Source: Methanosarcina sp. KYL-1
Lineage (GTDB): Archaea > Halobacteriota > Methanosarcinia > Methanosarcinales > Methanosarcinaceae
Length of the DNA stretch: 41,113 nt
Direction: 5' to 3'
Assembly (NCBI RefSeq): GCF_024372725.1
Contig: NZ_VOUA01000034.1
Coordinates: 1 to 41,113, forward strand
The first letter of the stretch is position 1. Each line of letters opens with the position of its first letter. Shown here one piece after another: positions 6,744 through 39,952 of this stretch. The position numbers and the translations under genes were made by a program. The notes below the pieces were generated by a model. It was not told the origin of the DNA. It searched no databases and saw only the letters and a list, made by a program, of their open reading frames with translations.

Positions 6744-8426
6744 TCAGAATATGTGTTTATCTCTTTCCATTTTCTCATAAAGAGCTATGAGGTTATTCAT
6801 GGTTTTTCCACAGTAAGGATGATTAGGACCTAGTTTTCTTTCGATTATTTCAATGGCTCTTTCAAATAGTTGGAGAGCTTCATCATATTTCCCCATTTCA
6901 CTATAGAGCCCTGCTACATTATTCAAGGTTATTGCAACATCAACGTGTTCTGGCCCCAAAGCTTTTTCTTGAGTATTGAGCGCTCGCTGATAAAGTTGTA
7001 AAGCTTTTTCGTATTCTCTCATCTGACGATAGAGTCCTGCTAGATTGCTAAATGTTGTTGCAGCATTTGGGTTTTTCTGCCCTAGTTTTTTTTCCTGAGT
7101 ATTAAGTGCTCGCTGATAAAGTTGTAAAGCTTTTTCGTATTCTCCCATCTGACTATAGAGTCCTGCTAGATTGCTTATTGTTGTTACAACACCAATGTGT
7201 TCTGGCCCCCAAACTTTTTCCTGAGTAATAAGTGCTCGCTGATAAAGTTGTAGAGCTTTTTCGTATTCTCCCATCTGAGTATAGAGTCCTGCTAGATTGC
7301 TAAGTGTTGTTGCAACACCAATGTGTTCTGGCCCCCAAACTTTTTCCTGAGTAATGAGTGCTCGGTGATAAAGTTGTAGAGCTTCTTCGTATTCTCCCAT
7401 CTGACTATAGAGTCCTGCTAGATTGCTAAGTGTTGTTGCAACATCAATGTGTTCTAGTCCTAATTCCCTTTCCTGAGTATTTAGTGCTCGCTGATAAAGT
7501 TGTAGTGATTTTTCATATTCTCCGATCTGACGATAGAGTCCTGCTAGATTGCTAAGTGTTGTTGCAACATGTGGATGTTCCTGTCCTAATTCCCTTTCCT
7601 GAGTATCAAGTGCCCACTGATAAAATGAAAGTGCTTTTTTATATTCACCCATCTGACGATATAACCCTGCTAGATTGTTCAGTGCTTTTGAAACAGAAGC
7701 GTATTCTTTACCTACGTCTTTTCCCTTGATTTTAAGTACTTGATAATAAAGACACAGCACTTTTTCATATTCTCCTGCACTGTATAAATACTCCGTTAAA
7801 TTTTCTACAATTTCCAAAATTTCTGAATAACTTGAGTTTGAATTGTGTACCAATATATCCAAGGCACACTGGGAGAGTGTTACAAATTCTTCATACGGTT
7901 CTTTTGTATAGCGACCGGTTATAAAATTTTTCACGCCGTCTCTAACACTTATATTTCGTGAATAAACACAATCTAGATTGCTATTTTTAAGCATATTGAT
8001 CCAAGAAATGCTTAAATCTTGACTAATTTCGGTTGTATTTAAAGTGGTAACAGGATATTTTTCGATCAACCAACTATCTAAATTTTCATACCCGATAAAG
8101 TATTTTCTGGCAAACTCTTCATTTTTTTCGAGATCTATTATATTTTTATCTTCAATTATCTTACTTACTTTTTTACCTTCAACTGTGTCATTCATATAAT
8201 ATAAGAATACTAAATAATAGTTCCATTGTAAATATCCTTGATTTGAATAATAATCCTCAGTGAATAAAGACATTAAGTATTCCCTTATATCAAAATTTTT
8301 GCTCAACCATTTATTAGAAAAGTCAAAGTAAAATATTTGGTAAGGAATGCTTCTGTATTGTTTTTCACATCTTAAAACATCATTAAAGTCTGGGACATCA
8401 TCAATCTTGTCAAAATATTTCTGCAA
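6744..8426 (-). CDS. TPR protein with unknown N-terminal domain (third gene of the STAND operon)
   Basis: A 560-residue protein. Residues 1-195 form an unrecognised domain rich in aromatic residues, including ARKYFIGYENLDSWL around 106-120. This recalls accessory proteins of ABC-ATPase conflict systems, but only weakly. Residues about 200-555 are eight or nine kinesin-light-chain-type TPRs of 42 residues with the core NLAGLYxQMGEYEKALQLY, suited to protein binding. No good ATG exists. The frame opens at TTG (8426), and an in-frame ATT nine codons upstream would add INPNNLREI, so the true start is uncertain and may depend on reinitiation after the upstream stop at 8449. It is the last gene of the operon at 10239 and 8449, and probably a sensor or adaptor partner of those proteins. 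Confidence 0.8.
   Translation of the reverse strand: MQKYFDKIDDVPDFNDVLRCEKQYRSIPYQIFYFDFSNKWLSKNFDIREYLMSLFTEDYYSNQGYLQWNYYLVFLYYMNDTVEGKKVSKIIEDKNIIDLEKNEEFARKYFIGYENLDSWLIEKYPVTTLNTTEISQDLSISWINMLKNSNLDCVYSRNISVRDGVKNFITGRYTKEPYEEFVTLSQCALDILVHNSNSSYSEILEIVENLTEYLYSAGEYEKVLCLYYQVLKIKGKDVGKEYASVSKALNNLAGLYRQMGEYKKALSFYQWALDTQERELGQEHPHVATTLSNLAGLYRQIGEYEKSLQLYQRALNTQERELGLEHIDVATTLSNLAGLYSQMGEYEEALQLYHRALITQEKVWGPEHIGVATTLSNLAGLYTQMGEYEKALQLYQRALITQEKVWGPEHIGVVTTISNLAGLYSQMGEYEKALQLYQRALNTQEKKLGQKNPNAATTFSNLAGLYRQMREYEKALQLYQRALNTQEKALGPEHVDVAITLNNVAGLYSEMGKYDEALQLFERAIEIIERKLGPNHPYCGKTMNNLIALYEKMERDKHIF
6760..7720 (-). repeat. 126-bp tandem coding repeats (TPR array)
   Basis: The TPRs are also repeats at DNA level. 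A unit of about 126 bp carrying the plus-strand phrase GAGTCCTGCTAGATTGCTAA recurs with few changes. Some neighbours, such as those around 7200 and 7320 with TGTTCTGGCCCCCAAAC, are almost identical. Such similarity indicates recent duplication or gene conversion. Confidence 0.85.
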
Positions 8427-8448
8427 TATTTCGCGTAAATTATTTGGA

Positions 8449-10242
8449 TTAATTTAACTCACCACCTTTAAAAATAGAATTTAATGGGCGGTTTGTATTT
8501 CTTTTATAAGTGGGGATGTCTCCTGAAATATTTTTTGCTCGGTTTGCCTCCCCATACCACACAACAACTCTTGGCTGTTGGTCTATAAACAACTTAGACA
8601 TTTCAACGAAGACTGAATTTGCAAGTGCTTCTGTTTCATCCCCTATGTAAGAGACAGAAGCTTTTGCTCTACTATTTTTTGAATATAAGTTGTACATATA
8701 ACTTTCAAAACTGGCATTTGGTTCGTATTTTACAAGGCAATCTTTTGATAAATCGCAAAGAATCTCTGGAAAACTGCTCTTGCTGTCGATTATATTGTAT
8801 AATTTAAGAAAATCTCTCATTGTTTGACGCTTTAAACTTTTTACTTCTTCATCTGGATCTTGTAAGAAAGTTAGTCTTCTGTTGACTTCATTACTTCGAT
8901 TATTCCTGACTGTTTTAAAAAATGTAATATTCTTGGGCTTTATCCAGTTGGGAGAAATTGCTTTTCCGGTTGACAGTGCGATTAATCTTTCTTTATTAAT
9001 TGGTGTCAAATTTGTATTTTTCAGCGGGCAGTAGTTAACACAATGTTCACATAATAATACACAGTTTTCATCCATCAAATGATTTACTTCTTCCCATCCA
9101 TTGCCATTTGTATCATTCCATTTATAAGCTCTCTTCATTTGTGGGCCACTATTTCCTTGGTTTTGAATTGTGTCTCCTTCTTGAAGAGCTTTTGTGTTTT
9201 TATATTCAAAAACGTATTCGTCATAATTAAAGAAAAAAATGTGTGCATGAGCAGGTGGCCAATGTGAGTAATATAAACCTAAATTATGGTTTTTGCATAT
9301 CCTTTCATCTTGTAGGTCTATTTCATCTGATTTTGTGTATAGCGCACTTCCTCCATATAAGCTGAACAACTCTCTGTTCATAATTGAGTTTCTAGCCCAA
9401 TTCAAACAGAGAAATTCTCTTTTTTTACTCCCTAGTTGATAATATCTAATTCGATGTCCTGAAAATAAATCATGAAATGGTTTTTTATTTAGTTGTATGT
9501 GCATCACTAAGTAGGTCATGTTCAATTCGCATGGAAGAGTATCCATTTTGAAAATTAGTGTATCTGAGCAAATAAGAGTAATCAGATAAATCGAATCTTG
9601 ATCGTTCCTTAATATGTATATTTTTTTTCCTAATATTAATCGATCTCTTTCAAAAGAACCGCTCATCGGATGAGTTTTAAATTGAACAAGCACAACATTT
9701 GCCAATAAGCTTGTCCTTATGTTCCTTGTTTTAAAAAAATAGCACACAGGGTCCAAAAACATATCTTCTTCTTCTGTTTGCAAGATATCTTCTTCAAAAA
9801 TCCAGACAATATCCTTATATCTTCTCATCAGTTCTTTCAATTCTTTTTGCTTTATGGATTCACAACCAATTATCCATAAATTGTGCTCTTGTGGAAAAAT
9901 ATTATTTTCAACTAAACTTTCAATAACTTTCCATGGACAAGAATATTCAGGAGTTATGGCAAGATTTACATTATTTCGAATCGCTAATTCAAAAAAAGAT
10001 TCAAACTTTTTCTTTGATATATTTGTGTCTAGGTTTCTTACAAAATAATCGCCGAATTCAATTTCTCCACATGGCTGAAAAAGTAAGGTTTTATACAATT
10101 GAGATCCAGGTTTTAATAATTCTAAGTCTGGATTTTTCAATTCTTTGTTTGATAGATAGTTATCAATAAACTCAAAATTTTGAGGATTCCCAGACACTTT
10201 TACCACCATATATAAAATAGTTGTGAGATTCTTTCTTTTCAC
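8449..10242 (-). CDS. Nitrilase-fold (carbon-nitrogen hydrolase-like) protein with extra C-terminal domain
   Basis: A 597-residue protein. The first ~290 residues carry what appears to be the nitrilase-superfamily triad: Glu99 in AITPEYS, Lys189 in VQFKTHP and Cys225 in LICSDTL. The Lys-to-Cys spacing of 36 is usual for the family, and MHIQLNKKP follows. The C-terminal half is unrecognised and has a Cys cluster, CVLLCEHCVNYC (394-405), that could hold a metal. Nitrilase-fold enzymes cleave amide or nitrile C-N bonds, and as an effector this one might attack a metabolite, cofactor or protein amide; that is inference. The GTG start overlaps the upstream TGA (GTGA), so it is translationally coupled to the STAND-ABC gene. 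Overall similarity to characterised nitrilases is low, so the call rests on motifs and order. Confidence 0.65.
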   Translation of the reverse strand: MKRKNLTTILYMVVKVSGNPQNFEFIDNYLSNKELKNPDLELLKPGSQLYKTLLFQPCGEIEFGDYFVRNLDTNISKKKFESFFELAIRNNVNLAITPEYSCPWKVIESLVENNIFPQEHNLWIIGCESIKQKELKELMRRYKDIVWIFEEDILQTEEEDMFLDPVCYFFKTRNIRTSLLANVVLVQFKTHPMSGSFERDRLILGKKIYILRNDQDSIYLITLICSDTLIFKMDTLPCELNMTYLVMHIQLNKKPFHDLFSGHRIRYYQLGSKKREFLCLNWARNSIMNRELFSLYGGSALYTKSDEIDLQDERICKNHNLGLYYSHWPPAHAHIFFFNYDEYVFEYKNTKALQEGDTIQNQGNSGPQMKRAYKWNDTNGNGWEEVNHLMDENCVLLCEHCVNYCPLKNTNLTPINKERLIALSTGKAISPNWIKPKNITFFKTVRNNRSNEVNRRLTFLQDPDEEVKSLKRQTMRDFLKLYNIIDSKSSFPEILCDLSKDCLVKYEPNASFESYMYNLYSKNSRAKASVSYIGDETEALANSVFVEMSKLFIDQQPRVVVWYGEANRAKNISGDIPTYKRNTNRPLNSIFKGGELN

Positions 10243-13200
10243 CTTGATAGGTTATATCTCTTAAATTCTAGTTCCCCTAAAAATTTAAACTTCTGAGATA
10301 TTAAGAATGCCAAATTTTCGTTTGCAGTGGCAAAAAATACTTGCCTATCTGTATTAATTACTATTTCTCTCAAATAATCAATAAATTCCAATACATTTAG
10401 ATCATCTATAAAGGATATTGGATCATCAAAAATTAAGTAAGGGGGACCATTTTGTAACTTTTTGTTTAAACTAAGAAAAATGGCCAATGCAAGTGCAGAT
10501 CTTTGACCAGTACTCATTGTGGATAATTCTGCATATTCTGAGGACTTGATTCTTTTCAATATAATATTAGAATCGAGATCAAAATCAATATTTTCGAATT
10601 CTTTCGGTGAATGTATTGCATTAAATATTTTAAAGATTTCTTCCTTATTTTTCTGAATGAAATTATGCAAGTAATTTTCTTTACTTTCACTAGTTAAAAT
10701 GTTTTTAATTGAAAAATGGCCTTTGTTGACAATTTCTTTCCTTTCAGTAACTTCTTTTATTTTACCTTCAATTCTCTTAATTTTTGTTTTGTAACTACAT
10801 TCGATTATATCATTTTTGTTCACTATATTTTTTTCCGCCTTTAAATTTTCAAAGAAATTGTTAATACGATCAAGTCTAAATTCTATATCTCTTAGCGGAT
10901 CATTATCCGAGACGAATATTATCTCCGATAGCTCTTCTACTAATTTTATAGAATTGTTTATTTTTTCCATTCTGTTTTGAATTAAAATTTGAAACGTATT
11001 TTGCTTCGAATTTGTGGAAATTACTTCATCGCTGTTTAGTTCTTTTGAGTAACTTCCTATAAAAATATCCTTCATTTTATAAGTTTTATTTATTTTATTT
11101 TCAATTTGTAAAGTTTTTTTCTCTAAAATTCTTTGCTTAGTTTTTTCGCAATCGTCGTTAAGCAAGCTATAAATTTTTTCTAATTCTTCCAGTGAATTTT
11201 CTATATCTAAATCTATCAAATCGATTTGACTTTTAATTTTTTTCAGTCTATTTTTTTCTGTCTTTAATGAACTTAACGTTAAATTTGGAATCCAATTAGT
11301 GTTTTTCAAAATGTAGTCTAAGCACATTTTTGCTTTATTGTAATCATTTTCAAACTCGATATAAGAATCTTCCAAACTTTGAGGAAGTATACCTTTCCAC
11401 ATTATTTTATCTGCTTCTTCAATAAATTGGGGGATTGAACTTCCTATAATGTTTTTATTAACAGTAATCTCTTTCATTATATCTTTTTCAATGTTTATAT
11501 CTTCCTCATATTCAGCAATGTAGTCTTCACATCTTTTTAATTCTGCTCTAAATTCCGATAAAAAATCTTTGAGCCTTTTTTCTACATAATTTACGTTTTC
11601 ACCTAGAGATATGTCTTCAAAAGCTTTTCTTATTTGGCCAGAAGAGTTTTCGTTTAATAGTCTAAATGCAGCATCTGTATTGTAAAAATTAAATTTATTG
11701 AAGCTTATACATAAATTGTTACTGTATTCGTTTTGTTCATAAGGATTATTATACCAATAAGAATCTCTTAAGTTGTATCTCTTGTTATTTTTAAGATCTA
11801 AGCTGTTGAACTCATTTCTTCCTTCATAAAGAATTTCAATTTCATAGTCAACTATTTGATTTCGACTTCTATAATTATTGCCACACATAAATAGTTCAAT
11901 TGCTTCCAGAAGAGATGTTTTTCCACTTCCATTTTGACCATAGAATAGATTAACTCTTCCGAGATCAAATTCCCTCTTTATAGGGTAATTTCGATATTTT
12001 TTCAATTTGATTTTCTTGATGTTAACTATTTTTTCTTCTTTTATTTCTAAATGCTTTAAATTTTCATTTGAGCTCCCCATTTCTTTATATACACTTGCCA
12101 AATTTAGCAATATTTTAGCTACCTTAGGATTTTTTTCTCCAAAGGTATTTTCACTAATTTGAAGTGCTCTTTGATAAAGTGGTAGTGCTTTTTCATAGTC
12201 CTTTAACTGCCGATAGAGTCCTGCAAGATTATTTAGTGTTGCTGCAACATCTGGGTGTTCTGGTCCCAGTACTTTTTCAACTATTTTGTATGCTTGGTTA
12301 TACAGCTGAAGTGCTTTTTCGTATTCTCCTATACTTTCATGTAGCCCTGCTAAATTGCTTATCGTTGTTGCAACATCAGGGTGTTCCGGACCCAGAGTTT
12401 TTTCAACTATTTTAAGTGTTTTTTGGTAAAGTGGTAACGCTCTTTCATGCTCCCCCATATTTTCATAAAGTCCTGCAAGATTGTTGAGAGTTGTTGCAAC
12501 ATCAGGATGTTCCGGTCCTAAAACATCTTCAGTTATTTCTAGATCCCGCTGGTAAAGTGGTAGTGCTTTTTCGTAGTCCTTTAACTGCCGATAGAGCCCT
12601 GCAAGATTGTTTAGTGTTTTTGCAACGATTGGGTGCTTCGGTCCAAGTGCATTTTCAACTATTTTAAGTGCTTCTTGGTAAAGTGGTAATGCTTTTTCGT
12701 AGTCCTTTAACTGCCGATAAAGTCCTGCAAGATTGTTTAGTGTTGTTGCAACATCAGGATGTTCTGGTCCTAGCACTTTTTCTTTAATTTTCACCGCTTG
12801 ATTATAAGATTGCAGTGCTTTTTCATATTCTCCCATGTGCCCATAGAGTCCTGCAAGATTGCTTAGTGTTGTTGCAACATCAGGGTGTTCTGGTCCTAGC
12901 ACTTTTTCTCTAATTTTAAGCGCTTGTTTATAAAGTTGCAGTGCTTTTTCGTATTCCCCCATGCTTTCGCACAATCTTGCTAGATTGTTTATTGTTGTTG
13001 CAACATCTGGGTGTTCTGGCCCCAGCACTTTTTCAACTATTTTAAGTGCTTGCTGACAACATGAAAGTGCTTTTTCGTACTCTCCCATCTGATTATAGAG
13101 TCCTGCTAGATTGTTCAGTATTTTTGCAACATCAGGGTGTTCTGGTCCTAGCACTTTTTCTCTAATTTTAAGCGCTTGCAGACAAGATGGAAGTGCTTTT

Positions 13201-15302
13201 TCATACTCTCCCATGCTTTCATAGAGTCCTGCTAGATTGTTCAGTATTTTTGCAACATCAGGGTGTTCTGGTCCTAGCACTTTTTCAACTATTTTTTGTG
13301 CTTCTTGATAAAGTTGCAGTGCTTTCTCGTACTCTCCCATGCTTTCATAGAGTCCTGCTAGATTGTTCAGTGTTATTGCAACATCAGGGTGTTCTGGCCC
13401 CAGTACTTTTTCAACTATTTTTTGTGCTTCTTGATAAAGTTGCAGTGCTTTCTCGTACTCTCCCATACTTTCATAGAGTCCTGCCAGATTGTTCAGTGTT
13501 GTTGCAACATCAGGGTGCTCTGGCCCCAGTACTTTTTCTCTAATTTTAGTCGCTTGCTTATAATGTTTCAGCGCTTTTTCGTATTCTCCCATGCTTTCAT
13601 GCAATCTTGCTAGATTGTTTAGTGTTGTTGCAACTTCAGGATGTTCAAGTCCAAGTTCTTCCTCATTATTTGTGAGTTTTTTCTCATACATTTTTAGGGA
13701 TTCTTCATACTTGCCCACATTCGCATAAAGAGTTGCAAGTGCATCCAAAGTTTTTCCATACTCGGGCTTTTTACATTCATTCTTTTCTTCTAAATATTCC
13801 AACATTTCTTGATATAGTGATATAATCAAAGTCCAGAATGCTGCTCTAAAAAAAGGATCTGAAAAATCGATAAACCATTTGAAAAATCTATCTACATCAA
13901 GGGCGGTTTTTGCATGATAAAAACCTTCAATCAAAGAAGTCTCATGTTTAGTGGTAATTTCTTTAATATCAATATCTTTTAATTGATTACTGTAATACTC
14001 AAGCATGAAAAGATGAACTTCTTTCTTTAATTTTTCTTCTTGATATTCCTGAAGACTATTTCTCATTAACTGATGCATGTACATTCTGCCTTCAGTATCA
14101 TGAAGAAATGAAAACCGGTGTAATTCTAAGTATTCATGTATAGGGTAGCCTGTACTAAAATTCGTGACTAACAATTTGAATATATCGTAATCCCAGAAGC
14201 GAGGAGTTGATAATACTTTAAAGGTTTTGATCTCTATATGAGTAAGATATTTTAAAAAACTATTATTAATTTCTTCTGGCATTTGCGCAAAATCAGATGG
14301 GTTTGGTTGCCTTTTTTTTTTAATTTTAGAGTAAGAATCAACAGTTAAAGCTAGATAATGGGGAACCCCTTCGCTTTTTGTAAGTAAAGTCTGTTGTATC
14401 TCTTTTTCTCTAACTCCACATGAATTTAGAAAATTAATCACATCTTTATCTGGTAGTTTTTCAAGGGGATACTGCTCAAGATATTTTTCCCAGTCTGGAT
14501 CAACTTCTTCCCAAAAAAGAGGCCTTCTTCCGAAGATCACCCATAAGCAATTTTCTGGCAGATTTGTTATTAATTCTCTTATCCACTCGTCTTTAGAATG
14601 GATGTTTACGAGACTTCGTTGATTTTCCCAAAGATTTTCATATGTATCTATGAAGAAAACTGCAGATTTCGAGTTTTTCTGCAAATAATCGATTAAGTCA
14701 AAAGCCCAATAAATTGGAAGTAGTTTTTCTAATTGAGCAATGTTCATATCAAATAACTTTAAAATTTCTTTGTTTCTTCTTAAAAACCATTCATCTGAAC
14801 AATCTGGATATTCTTCAATTGTTTTTTTGATACTCCTGGAATTTATCTGGACAAAACCGCCGAAGACATCAATTAACTTTTCAACGATGCTATTTTTGGA
14901 GTAACTTTCTTTTTGTAGAGGGATATTGGGATTTATTTTCTTCCAATAGACAGCGTTTGCAATGTCAAAAGAATTGAATTTAATATCATATTTTTCCTGC
15001 AGTTGATTCCTTAGAAATTCTAAGAATTTATCAACCCGTCTATGAGATTCTATTCTGAGATCCACAAATGCCCATAGTGTAATAGGATTCTGGTATAATT
15101 GGTTGTGTATATCAATCCGCTTCGCAAGTTCTTTTAGCAAGCTTGTTTTTCCTATACCCGCAATCCCATGATATACTAAAACATTATAGTTTTTTTTGCC
15201 AATAATATTCAATGAATTTTCAAAAACTTCAATAAATTCTGTTCTATTAACAAATAGGCGCTCTCCTCTATAAATAAGAGAACTAGTGGGAGATATTACC
15301 AT
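10239..15302 (-). CDS. STAND NTPase - TPR - ABC/SMC-like ATPase fusion protein
   Basis: A 1687-residue protein with two separate ATPase modules. Residues 1-430 are a STAND NTPase: Walker A GIAGIGKT (46-53), Walker B AVFFIDT (214-220), an Arg-containing strand WVIFGRR, a GVPHYLAL motif (312-319) and a winged-helix-like region. Residues 430-510 form a linker. Residues about 517-1085 are 13 full TPRs plus a partial one (core NLAGLYESMGEYEKALQLY). Residues about 1090-1687 are an ABC/SMC-type ATPase: Walker A GQNGSGKT (1122-1129), a long coiled-coil-like insert, signature STMSTGQRSALAL (from 1594) and Walker B YLIFDDP. The ATG has AGAGGA six bases upstream. It is first gene of a three-gene operon. 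STAND-TPR proteins sense a trigger and oligomerise; SMC-like ATPases act in DNA-linked defence. Fusion of both in one chain is unusual. Codon use is more AT-rich than in flanking genes. Confidence 0.9.
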   Translation of the reverse strand: MVISPTSSLIYRGERLFVNRTEFIEVFENSLNIIGKKNYNVLVYHGIAGIGKTSLLKELAKRIDIHNQLYQNPITLWAFVDLRIESHRRVDKFLEFLRNQLQEKYDIKFNSFDIANAVYWKKINPNIPLQKESYSKNSIVEKLIDVFGGFVQINSRSIKKTIEEYPDCSDEWFLRRNKEILKLFDMNIAQLEKLLPIYWAFDLIDYLQKNSKSAVFFIDTYENLWENQRSLVNIHSKDEWIRELITNLPENCLWVIFGRRPLFWEEVDPDWEKYLEQYPLEKLPDKDVINFLNSCGVREKEIQQTLLTKSEGVPHYLALTVDSYSKIKKKRQPNPSDFAQMPEEINNSFLKYLTHIEIKTFKVLSTPRFWDYDIFKLLVTNFSTGYPIHEYLELHRFSFLHDTEGRMYMHQLMRNSLQEYQEEKLKKEVHLFMLEYYSNQLKDIDIKEITTKHETSLIEGFYHAKTALDVDRFFKWFIDFSDPFFRAAFWTLIISLYQEMLEYLEEKNECKKPEYGKTLDALATLYANVGKYEESLKMYEKKLTNNEEELGLEHPEVATTLNNLARLHESMGEYEKALKHYKQATKIREKVLGPEHPDVATTLNNLAGLYESMGEYEKALQLYQEAQKIVEKVLGPEHPDVAITLNNLAGLYESMGEYEKALQLYQEAQKIVEKVLGPEHPDVAKILNNLAGLYESMGEYEKALPSCLQALKIREKVLGPEHPDVAKILNNLAGLYNQMGEYEKALSCCQQALKIVEKVLGPEHPDVATTINNLARLCESMGEYEKALQLYKQALKIREKVLGPEHPDVATTLSNLAGLYGHMGEYEKALQSYNQAVKIKEKVLGPEHPDVATTLNNLAGLYRQLKDYEKALPLYQEALKIVENALGPKHPIVAKTLNNLAGLYRQLKDYEKALPLYQRDLEITEDVLGPEHPDVATTLNNLAGLYENMGEHERALPLYQKTLKIVEKTLGPEHPDVATTISNLAGLHESIGEYEKALQLYNQAYKIVEKVLGPEHPDVAATLNNLAGLYRQLKDYEKALPLYQRALQISENTFGEKNPKVAKILLNLASVYKEMGSSNENLKHLEIKEEKIVNIKKIKLKKYRNYPIKREFDLGRVNLFYGQNGSGKTSLLEAIELFMCGNNYRSRNQIVDYEIEILYEGRNEFNSLDLKNNKRYNLRDSYWYNNPYEQNEYSNNLCISFNKFNFYNTDAAFRLLNENSSGQIRKAFEDISLGENVNYVEKRLKDFLSEFRAELKRCEDYIAEYEEDINIEKDIMKEITVNKNIIGSSIPQFIEEADKIMWKGILPQSLEDSYIEFENDYNKAKMCLDYILKNTNWIPNLTLSSLKTEKNRLKKIKSQIDLIDLDIENSLEELEKIYSLLNDDCEKTKQRILEKKTLQIENKINKTYKMKDIFIGSYSKELNSDEVISTNSKQNTFQILIQNRMEKINNSIKLVEELSEIIFVSDNDPLRDIEFRLDRINNFFENLKAEKNIVNKNDIIECSYKTKIKRIEGKIKEVTERKEIVNKGHFSIKNILTSESKENYLHNFIQKNKEEIFKIFNAIHSPKEFENIDFDLDSNIILKRIKSSEYAELSTMSTGQRSALALAIFLSLNKKLQNGPPYLIFDDPISFIDDLNVLEFIDYLREIVINTDRQVFFATANENLAFLISQKFKFLGELEFKRYNLSR
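12050..13750 (-). repeat. 126-bp tandem coding repeats, about 13 units
   Basis: The TPR block of the STAND-ABC gene is an array of 126-bp units that stay very similar at DNA level. On the plus strand GGTGTTCTGGTCCTAGCACT recurs in several units, and CATGCTTTCATAGAGTCCTG is present at both about 13212 and 13338. High nucleotide identity beyond what the protein needs points to recent expansion or ongoing recombination. Confidence 0.9.
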
Positions 15303-31333: not shown

Positions 31334-32017
31334 TTAAGATTTGCTCTCCGGACCGCCGCTGTCCGTTCCTTTCTTAACCTTTTTTCCCGCCTTCTGTGTA
31401 CCGGATTCCGTCTGTGTACTGGACACCGTAATCGATTCTGTAGTCGATTCTGTGGTAGATTCTGTACCGTACTCCGTAATGTACTCCAGATATTCTGTCG
31501 GGTCCAGCAGGTTTTCGGGCTTTTCTTCGGAAAACCAGTTGCCTCCCAGGTATTTTTCGTATGAGGTGATGGGCTTTTCTCTCCATAATTCAAAATGGAG
31601 CATGCACGGGTTTTTGTTTTTCAATTTCCGGATGTAGGGGGGACAGGACTCGTCTATTTTCCTGCAGTTGAGGACCGTTCCCACGTACCCGATAAGCTGT
31701 CCGGCCTCGATTCGATCCCCCTGCTGAACTGCATATTTTCCAAGTTCCCCATATTTGCAGAAGAGCCCGGAAAGGTTTTCAATGATCACATAGTATGTTT
31801 GGTTCCAGTAGGGCAGGATTTCCGGGGAGGTCATGAGGCCGGTTTCCATGACTGTTCCTGCTTCAATTGAAACGACCCCGGTGTTTTCCGGGGCATAAAG
31901 GTCGACTCCGCAGTGCCTTCTATCGTCCCTCTCTTCCCAGAAGGAACCGGGTTCGCCTTTTCCCGGAACTTTCTCCCTGTATGCCGTATCAGAAATATTC
32001 AAAGGCCATTTTTTCAT
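31334..32017 (-). CDS. M23 (LytM-like) peptidase-fold protein, probably inactive, no signal peptide
   Basis: A 227-residue protein. Residues about 30-150 have the M23 zinc-peptidase order: HCGVDLYAP (His35 and Asp39 as zinc ligands), VVSIEAGTV, YYVIIENLSGLFCKYGEL, GDRIEAGQLIGYVG and MLHFELW (His141). The usual HLHFE motif reads MLHFE, so the catalytic first His is Met139 while the metal-binding His is kept. Activity is therefore doubtful. No signal peptide or membrane segment is seen, although the known targets are cell-wall peptides, which Methanosarcina lacks as murein. The C-terminal ~55 residues are Thr/Glu/Ser repeats (TESTTESTTES) encoded by 12-bp repeats at about 31425-31470, ending in Lys-rich sequence. 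The ribosome site is weak. Confidence 0.8.
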   Translation of the reverse strand: MKKWPLNISDTAYREKVPGKGEPGSFWEERDDRRHCGVDLYAPENTGVVSIEAGTVMETGLMTSPEILPYWNQTYYVIIENLSGLFCKYGELGKYAVQQGDRIEAGQLIGYVGTVLNCRKIDESCPPYIRKLKNKNPCMLHFELWREKPITSYEKYLGGNWFSEEKPENLLDPTEYLEYITEYGTESTTESTTESITVSSTQTESGTQKAGKKVKKGTDSGGPESKS

Positions 32018-32390: not shown

Positions 32391-35300
32391 ATGAAAAAGT
32401 TCCTTGTTTCACTTTTGTTATTTATTTTACTTTCATCTCCTGCAGCAGCCGAGGACAGGGTCAGGATCGAGATGCCTGACAATGTAGCTTCGGGAGAGGC
32501 TTTCAAGGTTGTGCTTGTGATTGATGACCCCCAGATGAGGGAGCTTGCAAATACGGTTGTGGTCCGGACCGAAGGGAGAGGGGACATTACCCTCAGGAGG
32601 CCCGGGGATGAGTACGAGCCTTTCGAGATCCCTTATTCGGGAGAAGAACGGATCACCTTTGATGCCGTCATGTTTTCAGGCATGTTTGACGGGGACGAGG
32701 AGTGCACGCTCAGCTTCCAGTTCCTGGGAGATGTAGATAAGATGATGGAAAAGTACCCGGGGCTGAACACCTATACTTCCGACCTCGGGAGGGTCTCCAA
32801 AAAAATAAGGGCATCTCCCGTGAGTTTCTCGGTTGAGCTTCCGGAAACTCCGGAAGGGAAGTTTGAGTTCGAGCACTGGGACAAGGTGACTTTCGTTCCG
32901 GTCTTCAGGTATATCGATATGAGCAGCGACTATTATGCCTAGCTCAAGGGCTATCGGGGCGACATAGGAAGGAGCATATGTTATGTCCCTGAGCCGAACG
33001 CCCTTATAGCCAGGTCTATCCCGAAAGATTACCTTGACAACCCTCCTGAAGGCACGGAAGTCCATAAGCACGGCTACGGCACCTTCGGGGCAGAGGGCAG
33101 TTCCGAGGGGTATTACATGCTCACAACGACAAAGGGGATTGCCTGGCAGGAATCGGACTCAGAGACCGGGGAGAAAATCAATATCTACGACCTTACGGTT
33201 TCCTACAGTTACGAGGTCCTTGTAAACGATTTCCAGTATTATGCCGGAACGATCTTCAAGACCATGCGGGTCAAGGAGTCAGAGCTCGATTCCCGGATAG
33301 AAGATACCGTGGAGGAATTCCACAAAATCGTGCTGAGCCAGAAGTACACTCCCATCTCCATGGGAAGCGGCTCTTACCCCTCGGTCTATGAACCCCAGCT
33401 GCCTGCTTCTGACCAGCAGACTATCTACATCTGGGGAACGGTTGCCGATGCCGACGGAAACCCCATGCCCTTTGTCGAGCTGCAGGCAAATATCAAAGGG
33501 GAGGAGCTCAAGGGCAGGACCGATGAGAACGGGGACTTCCGGATTCCAGTAACCCTAGAACTGAAAGAGGACGAAAACGACGTCAAGGTCGATTTCTGGG
33601 TCATTTTCTCCTACGAAAGGAACGGGAAGAACTATTTCAGGGTACATGACAGGGCGAGCGGAAATGGGATGAATGGAAATGACTACAAAATGGTCTGGTT
33701 TTACAGCGAACTGAGGCTGCTTGATAAGCAGAACGTGGAAGTGCACCTTGTGCTTGACGGCTCCCAGAACCCGAAGCATGCGAGCAGCACGGGGCAGCTG
33801 GCTGACATAAAGAGCCTCTCGGTCATATATTCCCACATGCACGAGGCTGTGGACTTTGCCCTTACAGTTCTTGAGACCGACCCCGACTACAAGCTGCCTG
33901 TGGATGTCTATGTGGGGAACACCAACGATGACACTCTTTACTCCCCTGGCAGCTCCCATATCCTTATTTCGGAAAACGACGCCGGTTATTCAAACTCCAA
34001 CCGCCCGAAGAACCGGGAGTACCATGAGTTTGCTCACCACATAATGTACGCCACTTACGGGGGCTGGTCTAAGGGGAGCAGCGCGGCAGGTACGGTTAAC
34101 CACGACGGTTTCCTGAATCCGAATACGGGTGACTCCTATGAGGAAGGGTTTGCCGAGTTCATGGCCCTTGCGATGTCCGACAGGTACGGAGACACCAACC
34201 CTGCCGACGGCAGAGGGACAAAAACCGACATCTACGCCTCTTTCGGGAGCCTTGAAAACAACTATCACCCCTGGGACTCCAGAGGCTATGCCGAGGAATT
34301 CGCCGTCGCATCCCTGCTCTGGGACATGTACGACAGCGACAACGACAACGGCGACTCCCTTACCATGTCCATAGACGACATCTGGGCGGTCCTCAAGGTC
34401 CAGCGCTCCGATTTCTACGAGTATTACCTGGCTTTCAGGCAGGCAAACTCGAGAAAAGCTTCCGATATTGACAAACTCTTCATCGAACACGGCTTCTATG
34501 CCGACACCACGGAAGGCAACAAACAGCGTGACCTTTTCGAAGGCTTCAGGGACGCAAACAACAACCGGCGCTACGACCGGGGAGAGTTCTACTTCGACCT
34601 TGGCTGCCTGAACGGCACAAACGAGCTCAAGTACAAACCCGGAATGACCGTAGGAAAAGCCGCAAACTACGAGCGGACAAACCGGACCTCCGCAGGCAGG
34701 ATCGACGGAGCCTACCTCAAGGTCAAGGACGACGAAGTCCCCCAGTACCTGGTCAGGATCCACTACACCGAACCCGGTGCAGGCACGGACTACGAGTACG
34801 TTGTCGACGTGCGGGATGGCCTCCTCTACGTCCAGCCCCTTCCCTACGGCACCCCTGCCGAGCTCACAGTCGTGCCCTACTCGGTTGAGTACGGCGCAGA
34901 GTCCCCCTACACCATCACCAGCGAAGAACTCAATACGAAGCTGGAAGAGCCCGAGGAATACTTTGCAGCTCACGAGTTCGACCTGAAAAAGACAGGAGTG
35001 ACCGGAGACACCCCCTACGTCACCTACAAGGGCGTCGAGCCCACCTACGCCTATGAAGGTGACCTGGGAACGGAAGTTGACATAAACACCGGTGACAGTG
35101 AAGAGCTCGATCTTGAAAGCAAAAGCAGCAGCGACAAGTCTCCCTTCCTCTGGCTGCTCATGCTCCCGGTCCTGGGCGGCGGAGCCTTCCTAGTCCTTAA
35201 AAAGAAAATAAACGGAAAGTCCACTGCAAAAGGTCCCGGGGGTTCCGGCAAATCCGGAGGAGCCGGTTCCGTCAGCAATTCCGGCAGCAGTAACGGCAAC

Positions 35301-35567
35301 AAAATTGGCTCCGCTAAAAATTCCTTTAAGGCAGCCTCCATGGGAGCCGATACCTTTGCCCGCAAAGAAGCCCGCGACCTCAAGGAAAAAGGCGTCCCCG
35401 TCCTGAAGGAAGCCGGTAAAATGGCTGCAGAGTTAACCGCCAAAGGCGCAGATACTCTCATTCAGAAGACCGGAGAAGGCATCGAAAAAGCAAAACCGCA
35501 CCTGAAAAAGGCACAGGAAGATATGGTTAAGAAGATTGAAGATGTGAAGGAGAAAAAGGGGAAGTGA
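32391..35567 (+). CDS. Exported membrane-anchored HExxH metalloprotease with in-frame UAG (possible pyrrolysine)
   Basis: A single frame of 1059 codons broken only by TAG at 32940-32942 (codon 184, ...SSDYYA-UAG-LKGYRGD...). Frame, codon use and composition continue without change on both sides, and the 58 codons between the UAG and the next Met (33117) look coding. With UAG read as pyrrolysine the product has 1058 residues. It has a signal peptide (1-21, LLSSPAAA), beta-rich N-terminal domains, a carboxypeptidase-regulatory-like segment (ADADGNPMPFVELQANIKG) and a gluzincin-type zinc site EYHEFAHHIMY (HEFAH 34023-34037, residues 545-549). SYEEGFAEF supplies the third ligand about 36 residues on. 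A C-terminal membrane helix (LWLLMLPVLGGGAFLVL) and a Lys/Ala-rich cytoplasmic tail complete it. Start ATG with GGAG. Alternatives: a 183-residue truncated product, or a nonsense mutation. Confidence 0.85.
32940..32942 (+). other. In-frame UAG codon, candidate pyrrolysine site
   Basis: TAG lies in frame 183 codons into the metalloprotease gene, with 874 further sense codons before the real TGA stop at 35565-35567. None of the other intact genes in the window ends in TAG; they end in TAA or TGA. That fits the known avoidance of UAG stops in Methanosarcina, where tRNA-Pyl decodes UAG. Confidence 0.7.
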
Positions 35568-37547: not shown

Positions 37548-39530
37548 TCACACCGTATCCTTTCCAGCGGCTTCCCTGAAACTTATCCTGAACTCCGTTC
37601 CTGCTGCCCCTCTTTTGAGTTCGATACTGCCCTCGATCTGCTCAACAAGGGTGTTTACGAGCTGGAGCCCGAGGGAGGAGGTGTTCCTGAAATCGATATC
37701 TTCCGGAAGGCCCACGCCGTCATCCGAAATAACCAGCAGGTACCGGGGGGTCTTGTCCTCAGGGGTGCCCTTCTCTTTCCGGTGGAGTTTGACCCGGATT
37801 TCCCCGTTTCTGCCACGTGGAAAGGCGTGTTTTAAGGAGTTGGAAATAAGTTCGTTGATGATGATCCCGAGGGGGATTGCGGTGTCCATTCCAAGGAACA
37901 CTTTCTCAAGGTCCAGGCTTAAGCGGATGTCATCAGGCCCTATTTTATAGGAGTGGAGAAGTTCCGTTGCCAGTTTTCGGAGGTAGGCTGTAAAGTCAAG
38001 GGCTTCCACGTCTTCAATTCCCTCATTTTTGTACAGTTCCTCGTGGATCAGGGACATTGAAATGACGCGGTTCTGGCTGTCCTGGAAAGCCTCTTTTACC
38101 TTTTCGTCACTGAAATGTTCGGCCTGAAGGCTGAGCAGGGAGGAAATCACCTGCAGGTTGTTCTTGATCCTGTGGTGGATTTCTTTTTTGCGGATTTTCT
38201 CGGTTTTCAGGAGGGCTTTTTCTGCTTTTTTTCGTTCGGTGATATCGAGCAGTACGCCTACTATTCCTATTATGTCCCCGGCAACATTGGTATATGTGGC
38301 CTTGTGGATAAGAAAATCCCTGACTTTGCCGTCTTCGGCACACCTTATCTTTACTTCATGGGGCAGGCTTTTTCCTTCTTTTATGAGAATCCTATCAAAA
38401 TGCTCCGAGGCCTTCACCATTTCCTCAGAAAACTCTTCCCTGAAATCGTACATTGAATGTCCTATTACTTTATTTTTCGGAAGGCCGAGGACGTGGCCGG
38501 CAAACTTCTCATTGCAGCCCTGATAGATGTATTCCAGGTTCCTGTAAAATACGGGAGCAGGGATTGCATCGAGAAATGCTTCCAGGAAATTTACGTTGTT
38601 TTGAAGAGCCCTCTCAACCTGCTTGCGCCCGGAAATTTCCCTGGAGAGCCTTTCGTTTGTTTTCGTAAGTTCGGAGGTCCTTTCCCTGACAAGCTCTTCA
38701 AGGTGCTCGCGGTGCTGCTTCAACTCTTCTTCTGCACGTATACGCTCTATTTTTTCTGCAAGTAAAAATGCCACGGAATTAAGAAAGTAGGCATCATCCC
38801 CGGTAAACTTCCTTTTCTTTATGCTGTGGGCTCCCAGTACCCCGAAGGGTTTTTCCAGGCTGCCTATAAGGACACTCATCCCGCTTGTCACGTCGTGTTC
38901 TTCCAAAAGTTCGGGGGCTTTGAACCGTGTTTCCTTTTCAAGGTCCTCAACGATTACGGGGACCTTTGAAAGCAGGGTATACCCGGCCTGGGATTCCTTT
39001 TTTCCCTCCACAGAGGCTTTTCCCACAAGTCCGGGTTTCCAGCCGACCCCGGCCCTGAGCAGAAAATTTCCATCGGGCAGGAGCTCAAGGATTTTGCAGT
39101 ATTCGATTTTCAGGGTCCGTGCGACCAGCTTTACGGTTTCGTCCATGAAGACCTGGAGGTCCTCACAGACGAGGGCCATTCTTCCCAGCTGGTATAAAAC
39201 GTCATTTTGTCTTTCCTTGATGCGGAGCTTTTCTTCCAGCTCTTTTTGCCCGCTTATATCGAATCCGTAAATGTTTACGTACCCTTCTTCCGGAAGGGGG
39301 TGAAACGTGACCAGATATGCTCTCCTTCCCACTTTAAGTTCCATTTTCTCTGGGACGTTTTGGGAAATAACTCTCTGCACAAGGTTCCCTATAACTACCG
39401 GCAGTTTTTCCCCTACATCCGCGCCCCACGTCTGAAGCAGGGGTTCACCTGCCAGGTTTGCGTAAATTACCCTTCCGTCTTTTTCCGCCCGGAGCACGGG
39501 ATTTGGGTTCTTTGCCGGAAACTGTTCCAT
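37548..39530 (-). CDS. PAS-GAF-PAS sensor histidine kinase (HisKA_2 type)
   Basis: A 660-residue soluble kinase. An N-terminal PAS-like domain (about 5-95) and GAF (about 115-265) lead to a coiled coil (270-310). A PAS (about 310-435) precedes the HisKA_2 dimerisation domain with the phosphoacceptor His in EIHHRIKNNLQVISSLL (about 450-455), followed by HATPase with NELISNSLKHAFP, SDDGVGLPE and SLGLQLV. This class is common in Methanosarcina and usually soluble. ATG 39530 is chosen because GGGGAG lies five bases upstream; an upstream TTG at 39563 would place that site inside the gene. No receiver-protein gene is adjacent, so the output partner is unknown. There are no membrane segments, so the signal is probably cytoplasmic. 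Confidence 0.93.
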   Translation of the reverse strand: MEQFPAKNPNPVLRAEKDGRVIYANLAGEPLLQTWGADVGEKLPVVIGNLVQRVISQNVPEKMELKVGRRAYLVTFHPLPEEGYVNIYGFDISGQKELEEKLRIKERQNDVLYQLGRMALVCEDLQVFMDETVKLVARTLKIEYCKILELLPDGNFLLRAGVGWKPGLVGKASVEGKKESQAGYTLLSKVPVIVEDLEKETRFKAPELLEEHDVTSGMSVLIGSLEKPFGVLGAHSIKKRKFTGDDAYFLNSVAFLLAEKIERIRAEEELKQHREHLEELVRERTSELTKTNERLSREISGRKQVERALQNNVNFLEAFLDAIPAPVFYRNLEYIYQGCNEKFAGHVLGLPKNKVIGHSMYDFREEFSEEMVKASEHFDRILIKEGKSLPHEVKIRCAEDGKVRDFLIHKATYTNVAGDIIGIVGVLLDITERKKAEKALLKTEKIRKKEIHHRIKNNLQVISSLLSLQAEHFSDEKVKEAFQDSQNRVISMSLIHEELYKNEGIEDVEALDFTAYLRKLATELLHSYKIGPDDIRLSLDLEKVFLGMDTAIPLGIIINELISNSLKHAFPRGRNGEIRVKLHRKEKGTPEDKTPRYLLVISDDGVGLPEDIDFRNTSSLGLQLVNTLVEQIEGSIELKRGAAGTEFRISFREAAGKDTV

Positions 39531-39952
39531 TTTTGCTCCCCCATCAAGTTGCTTCCGCTTCAATGCCGCTCACATCCCTAAGGGTAACGGTTGCAGGCCA
39601 GAATCCCATATTCTTAAATCAAGAACTTTCCTCAAACCCGCCCCTGCCTTAATAATCAGTATGAATTTAATAATCAGTATGAATAAATTATTTTCTTAAA
39701 TCTGTCGGCTTCCTTCTTATCCCTATTCCTTTTATATATATTTTCACAATTATAATTTTTCACATAAGGGGCCTGAACACCTTTTCCCACCTCTACTTTA
39801 GGAAATAGGTGATTCTGAAAATTGGAGATCCTGTTTCCTCTTTGCCGGGGGTTCACCGACAGCCAGCAGAGCGTTAGCAGGAGAAAGATGTGTAAGTACA
39901 GGCGCTAAAATCCCATAGGGGATTCAGGACAGATTCAGCGGAGGGTAAAGAG
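39531..39952. promoter_or_regulatory. Divergent spacer, kinase / radical SAM remnant
   Basis: About 420 bp. A duplicated TTTAATAATCAGTATGAA occurs at about 39648-39683. An AT-rich TATA-like tract, CTTTTATATATATTTTC, is at 39728-39744. GGAGGGTAAAGAG directly before ATG 39953 is a strong ribosome site, showing that the truncated gene behind it once had, and may keep, translation signals. No gene is seen here. Confidence 0.5.

Follow-up and report, generated by a model that had tools for sequence, protein, structure and literature searches.

Architecture of the interrupted gene

The window comprises the entire contig C34 (41,113 nt) of the KYL-1 genome, which amounts to 4.04 Mb in 66 contigs. 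Its forward strand carries one frame of 1058 codons (32391-35567), interrupted once, by the TAG of codon 184 (32940-32942). The frame is preceded by GGTGGAG, opens with ATG, and runs for 183 sense codons up to the TAG and for another 874 sense codons to a terminal TGA. The original prediction had described this frame as uniform in composition, and the codon statistics downstream of the TAG match those of genes. It had also noted that no other intact gene ends in TAG, and this holds for the other larger ORFs listed for the window. Ordinary ORF calling divides the gene into products of 183 and 816 amino acids, which is the split that had been foreseen for automatic annotation.

The whole frame, read through translation and with homologues open across the UAG, is predicted to encode an exported, membrane-anchored HEXXH protein. 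Its hydrophobic N-terminus (residues 1-22, 32391-32456; MKKFLVSLLLFILLSSPAAAED) is a likely signal peptide, as evident from sequence and hydropathy. On the other side of the TAG lie HEFAH (residues 545-549, 34023-34037; motif wording taken from the window sequence) and EEGFAEF (residues 584-590, 34140-34160), the latter a candidate third zinc ligand helix. The only other hydrophobic segment revealed by hydropathy (about residues 917-937, 35139-35201) is a likely membrane anchor. The distribution of these elements around the TAG is as originally predicted. The gene is flanked on the reverse strand by a Peptidase M23 domain gene (31334-32017) and a histidine kinase gene (37548-39563).

Elsewhere in the window, three adjacent reverse-strand genes with long TPR arrays (6744-15302) display a low GC3 (0.25-0.27, against 0.42-0.72 in the others), and are likely foreign or defence-like.

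Homologues and the residue at codon 184

When 112 genomes of the family were searched, the protease-like gene was found in 11 genomes other than KYL-1, one of the same genus (G097, the MAG Methanosarcina sp. STD2_179) and ten of a second genus, mostly Methanolobus. A genome-contig scan with the single protein had returned no relatives, and it was the alignment-based scan that recovered them; none were found in plasmid and viral collections. Ten of the 11 copies are open across the UAG site and none has a stop there. The copy of Methanolobus psychrotolerans (G045:C81:218326-221321, loci L012 and L013) is disrupted by an independent frame break around residue 339, which indicates that the gene can be lost.

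The closest orthologue, that of G097, shares 77% identity with the protease-like protein and is syntenic, with an M23 peptidase gene and a histidine kinase gene beside it as in KYL-1. It has GAG (Glu) at the UAG position, as have two Methanolobus copies. Other homologues have Arg (AGA or AGG), Thr (ACC) or Pro (CCT) there, and Ala is found in a Nanoarchaeota MAG copy. Conservation extends over both sides of the codon, which refutes a one-sided homology, and includes the stretch of 58 codons that leads from the TAG to the ATG at 33117, which is conserved at the protein level. Among the homologues compared, UAG at codon 184 is confined to the KYL-1 genome, and a single GAG-to-TAG change in the KYL-1 lineage would be the parsimonious history.

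Selection on either side of the TAG was elucidated by comparing the KYL-1 gene with its G097 orthologue. The dN/dS values, 0.14 before the TAG and 0.17 after it, fall within the range of sister pairs inside Methanolobus. After the TAG, 42 lineage-assignable amino-acid changes were recorded in KYL-1 as compared to 53 in G097, and alignment columns that never vary among the other copies are violated in 15 of 304 cases in KYL-1 and 19 of 308 in G097; the comparison thus revealed no excess of changes in the KYL-1 lineage after the TAG. Given the similar constraint and violation counts, selection has acted on the downstream part over most of the period after the two lineages split, a pattern that would fit continued translation and a very young TAG alike. 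The TAG-interrupted conserved frame is more than a product of chance, because homologues in 11 genomes lack a stop at the site, and because the downstream codon statistics match those of genes and purifying selection is strong.

Protein family and fold

The residues of HEFAH and of EGFAEF (E585 to E589 and the following F) are invariant in 16 aligned sequences, including copies from Altiarchaeota and Nanoarchaeota MAGs. The HEXXH motif and the downstream Glu helix motif that mark gluzincins are therefore present and invariant in the family. The arrangement, with EEGFAEF following HEFAH after 35 residues, resembles that of gluzincin HEXXH metallopeptidases (thermolysin, M1-like folds), but the region differs from them in that Pfam, NCBIfam and PDB sequences gave no match to it and its models are of low confidence.

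For the whole protein, AlphaFold gave a model (pLDDT 42) of insufficient quality to locate residue 184. The catalytic-region model (pLDDT 47), likewise of low confidence, puts both motifs in helices and does not decide the fold. Its best fold match is aureolysin (E=0.016, TM 0.28), with nothing at E<=0.001, and leukotriene A4 hydrolase is also among the best, likewise non-significant, matches. The motifs and topology of the secreted zinc metalloprotease originally proposed have stood, and its identity as such is kept putative because the catalytic region matches no family and the fold matches are non-significant.

Homologues of the protease region also occur in MAGs labelled Nanoarchaeota and Altiarchaeota (L198-L201), suggesting a wider archaeal family that has no Pfam name.

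Pyrrolysine machinery

KYL-1 groups with Methanosarcina, and the pyl genes on which decoding of the UAG would depend are all present in the genome. Contig C47 carries a complete pylTSBCD set, with tRNA-Pyl (anticodon CUA), pylS, pylB, pylC and pylD; ramA, mtbA and a gene for a corrinoid protein lie close by. The PylC-like N-terminal Pfam model found no match in the genome; the NCBIfam PylC model matched strongly, indicating that the Pfam miss reflects the sensitivity of the model. At least eight methylamine methyltransferase genes have an in-frame UAG (two mtmB, both truncated at contig ends, three mtbB and three mttB). Pfam confirmed four of them, and PYLIS matches confirmed the full set of eight.

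No PYLIS match was obtained near the UAG of the protease-like gene, and a fold check of the RNA downstream of it revealed no unusual structure. A PYLIS element is not required for Pyl insertion, which likely results from competition between Pyl-tRNA and release factor (review, PMC9499178). UAG serves as both sense and stop in such archaea, and uidA with an introduced amber codon showed an apparent readthrough of 20-30% in M. acetivorans (PMC2933860).

The pylB gene of KYL-1 (C47, L028:9711-10772, reverse strand) itself ends in TAG, and readthrough would add 23 codons up to a TGA; the pylB genes of M. mazei and M. acetivorans likewise have a TAG stop (PMC2933860).

TAG usage across the genome

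The codon survey covered 2.79 Mb, or 69% of the genome, in which TAG terminates 37 of 1656 gene-like ORFs. Methyltransferases aside, three conserved genes in this portion are interrupted by TAG, namely the protease-like gene and two others. A HEAT-repeat protein gene (C3:175571-176794, forward strand; L095:15571-16794) is interrupted in frame by a TAG at codon 370, a position at which five homologues of the genus, all continuous, have Lys. A fumarate-reductase/succinate-dehydrogenase-type flavoprotein gene (C11:75378-77216, forward strand; L147:15378-17216) has its TAG at codon 471, between two Pfam domains, and four homologues, again all continuous, have Ser there. Two further ORFs ending in TAG, each with an extension beyond it, were set aside as not interrupted: a PspC-domain ORF is directly followed by an ATG of its own, and in an Endo_dU gene the domain stops before the TAG.

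For comparison, 58 ORFs ending in TAA or TGA with an in-frame coding-like stretch of at least 60 codons downstream were collected. A Pfam scan of about 50 of these 58 junctions found no domain across the stop, and the scanned junctions were mostly, and clearly, two neighbouring genes. Counted by ORF ends, the contrast is 3 of 29 against 0 of 1619 (p = 5e-6), a value that rests on an incomplete check and on the wrong null for mutation. Among random nonsense mutations or errors, a TAG share of 0.385-0.47 is expected, so that three out of three would be TAG with a chance of 0.06-0.10. The TAG excess among interrupted conserved genes is, under this null, suggestive and not conclusive.

In another Pyl-decoding genome (G095), the frame of a HEAT-repeat homologue (G095:C4:21756-22967, reverse strand; L173) continues past its end as short KPA-TAG repeat units, a curious array with a TAG in each unit.

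Probable origin and decoding of the UAG

The observations are probably best explained by a recent, near-neutral drift of a sense codon to UAG, which would be decoded as Pyl at partial efficiency to give a full-length protein together with a 183-aa stub. The gene would specify one full-length product, a HEXXH-type protein predicted to be secreted and anchored in the membrane, and in the KYL-1 lineage its codon 184 would have passed from a sense codon, most probably GAG (Glu), to TAG. Since KYL-1 produces both pyrrolysine and tRNA-Pyl(CUA), the UAG would be contested between release factor and Pyl-tRNA; some ribosomes would insert Pyl at the variable, non-critical position 184 and complete the protein, and others would terminate there and leave an exported stub of 183 aa. 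Such a change would have been tolerated because few genes of KYL-1 end in UAG, which is partly sense there. We infer that the UAG in the protease-like mRNA is decoded and yields a functional Pyl-containing protein.

The continuous homologues, the variable site, the syntenic GAG orthologue and the equal constraint on both sides, with no excess of changes after the TAG, argue for this drift. So do the pyl genes, the small share of ORFs that end in TAG, and the two further TAG-interrupted genes as compared to none with TAA or TGA in about 50 of 58 junctions checked, together with the published amber readthrough and the Thg1 case in M. acetivorans. The lack of a PYLIS element at the UAG counts against it, as do the only suggestive TAG excess (0.06-0.10 under the random-nonsense null) and the fact that a very young TAG would look identical. 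A rival reading is a freshly broken pseudogene, in which the TAG would terminate, the 183-aa stub would be useless and the downstream part would not yet have decayed. The occurrence of UAG in one genome, the loss of the whole catalytic region and the broken frame in Methanolobus psychrotolerans, which shows the gene to be dispensable at times, are in keeping with such decay; nevertheless, we regard it as unlikely, as 874 codons carry no second defect, the lineage has no excess of changes, KYL-1 decodes UAG, and similar TAA- or TGA-broken genes were not found in about 50 junctions checked. The draft state of the assembly (66 contigs) and the restriction of the UAG to this genome would also suit an artefact of sequencing or assembly that put TAG in place of GAG or a different sense codon; errors would not favour TAG, however, and with three conserved genes interrupted by TAG and none of those checked by TAA or TGA, an error appears very unlikely.

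The original prediction of a candidate pyrrolysine protein, either with Pyl in an extracellular enzyme or with a short and a long product, is supported as to machinery and continuous homologues, but not as to a specific use of Pyl, the site being variable, devoid of PYLIS and restricted to one genome. A functional Pyl at residue 184, or readthrough as a regulated switch between short and long exported products, would accord with a stub holding the signal peptide and first domain while the catalytic part lies beyond the UAG; the variability of the position, the absence of UAG from every homologue and the lack of PYLIS or an unusual RNA fold leave it only a slim chance. It is scarcely credible that the cell makes two proteins, the stub and, from ATG 33117, an independent one of 816 aa: GAGGGG does occur a few bases upstream of this ATG, but it sits inside a conserved coding stretch, the 58 codons from TAG to ATG are conserved as protein, and the 816-aa product would have no export signal.

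Extended beyond this gene, the favoured drift would make UAG a near-ordinary sense codon in KYL-1, present, besides the methyltransferases, in three or more conserved genes that are unrelated to one another, where it took the place of Glu, Lys and Ser, and would place a Pyl protein on the cell surface; this wider reading is possible but rather doubtful. If it were true, the amount of full-length protein would be set by the supply of Pyl-tRNA.

Relation to known UAG-containing genes

The nearest parallel is Thg1 (tRNA-His guanylyltransferase) of M. acetivorans, whose in-frame UAG is described (Heinemann et al. 2009, as summarised in PMC2933860) as arising by neutral evolution and as not needed for activity. 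Each UAG is confined to a single species, a Pyl-decoding Methanosarcina, with homologues that have none, and stands at a residue that is not essential in Thg1 and appears non-essential in the KYL-1 protein. However, Thg1 is a cytosolic tRNA enzyme whose activity has been tested, whereas the exported KYL-1 protein is a prediction from sequence. The protease-like gene also resembles the MtmB, MtbB and MttB genes of the same genome in having an in-frame UAG in a frame that is open and conserved on both sides; the methyltransferase UAG is conserved, catalytic and accompanied by a PYLIS match, in contrast to the lineage-specific UAG described here, which lies at a variable site and has none.

Together with its two companions in the same genome, the gene offers a clean natural case of sense codons drifting to UAG in a Pyl-decoding archaeon, and to our knowledge it would be the first in a predicted exported surface protein. 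Papers of 2025 reportedly describe ambiguous or wholesale decoding of UAG as Pyl in archaea, which would further reduce the novelty of the KYL-1 case. The three-gene set permits a direct test of the freedom of UAG to act as a Pyl codon without PYLIS, and of the passage of this codon from stop to sense. In practice, genes interrupted by UAG are divided or dropped by annotation.
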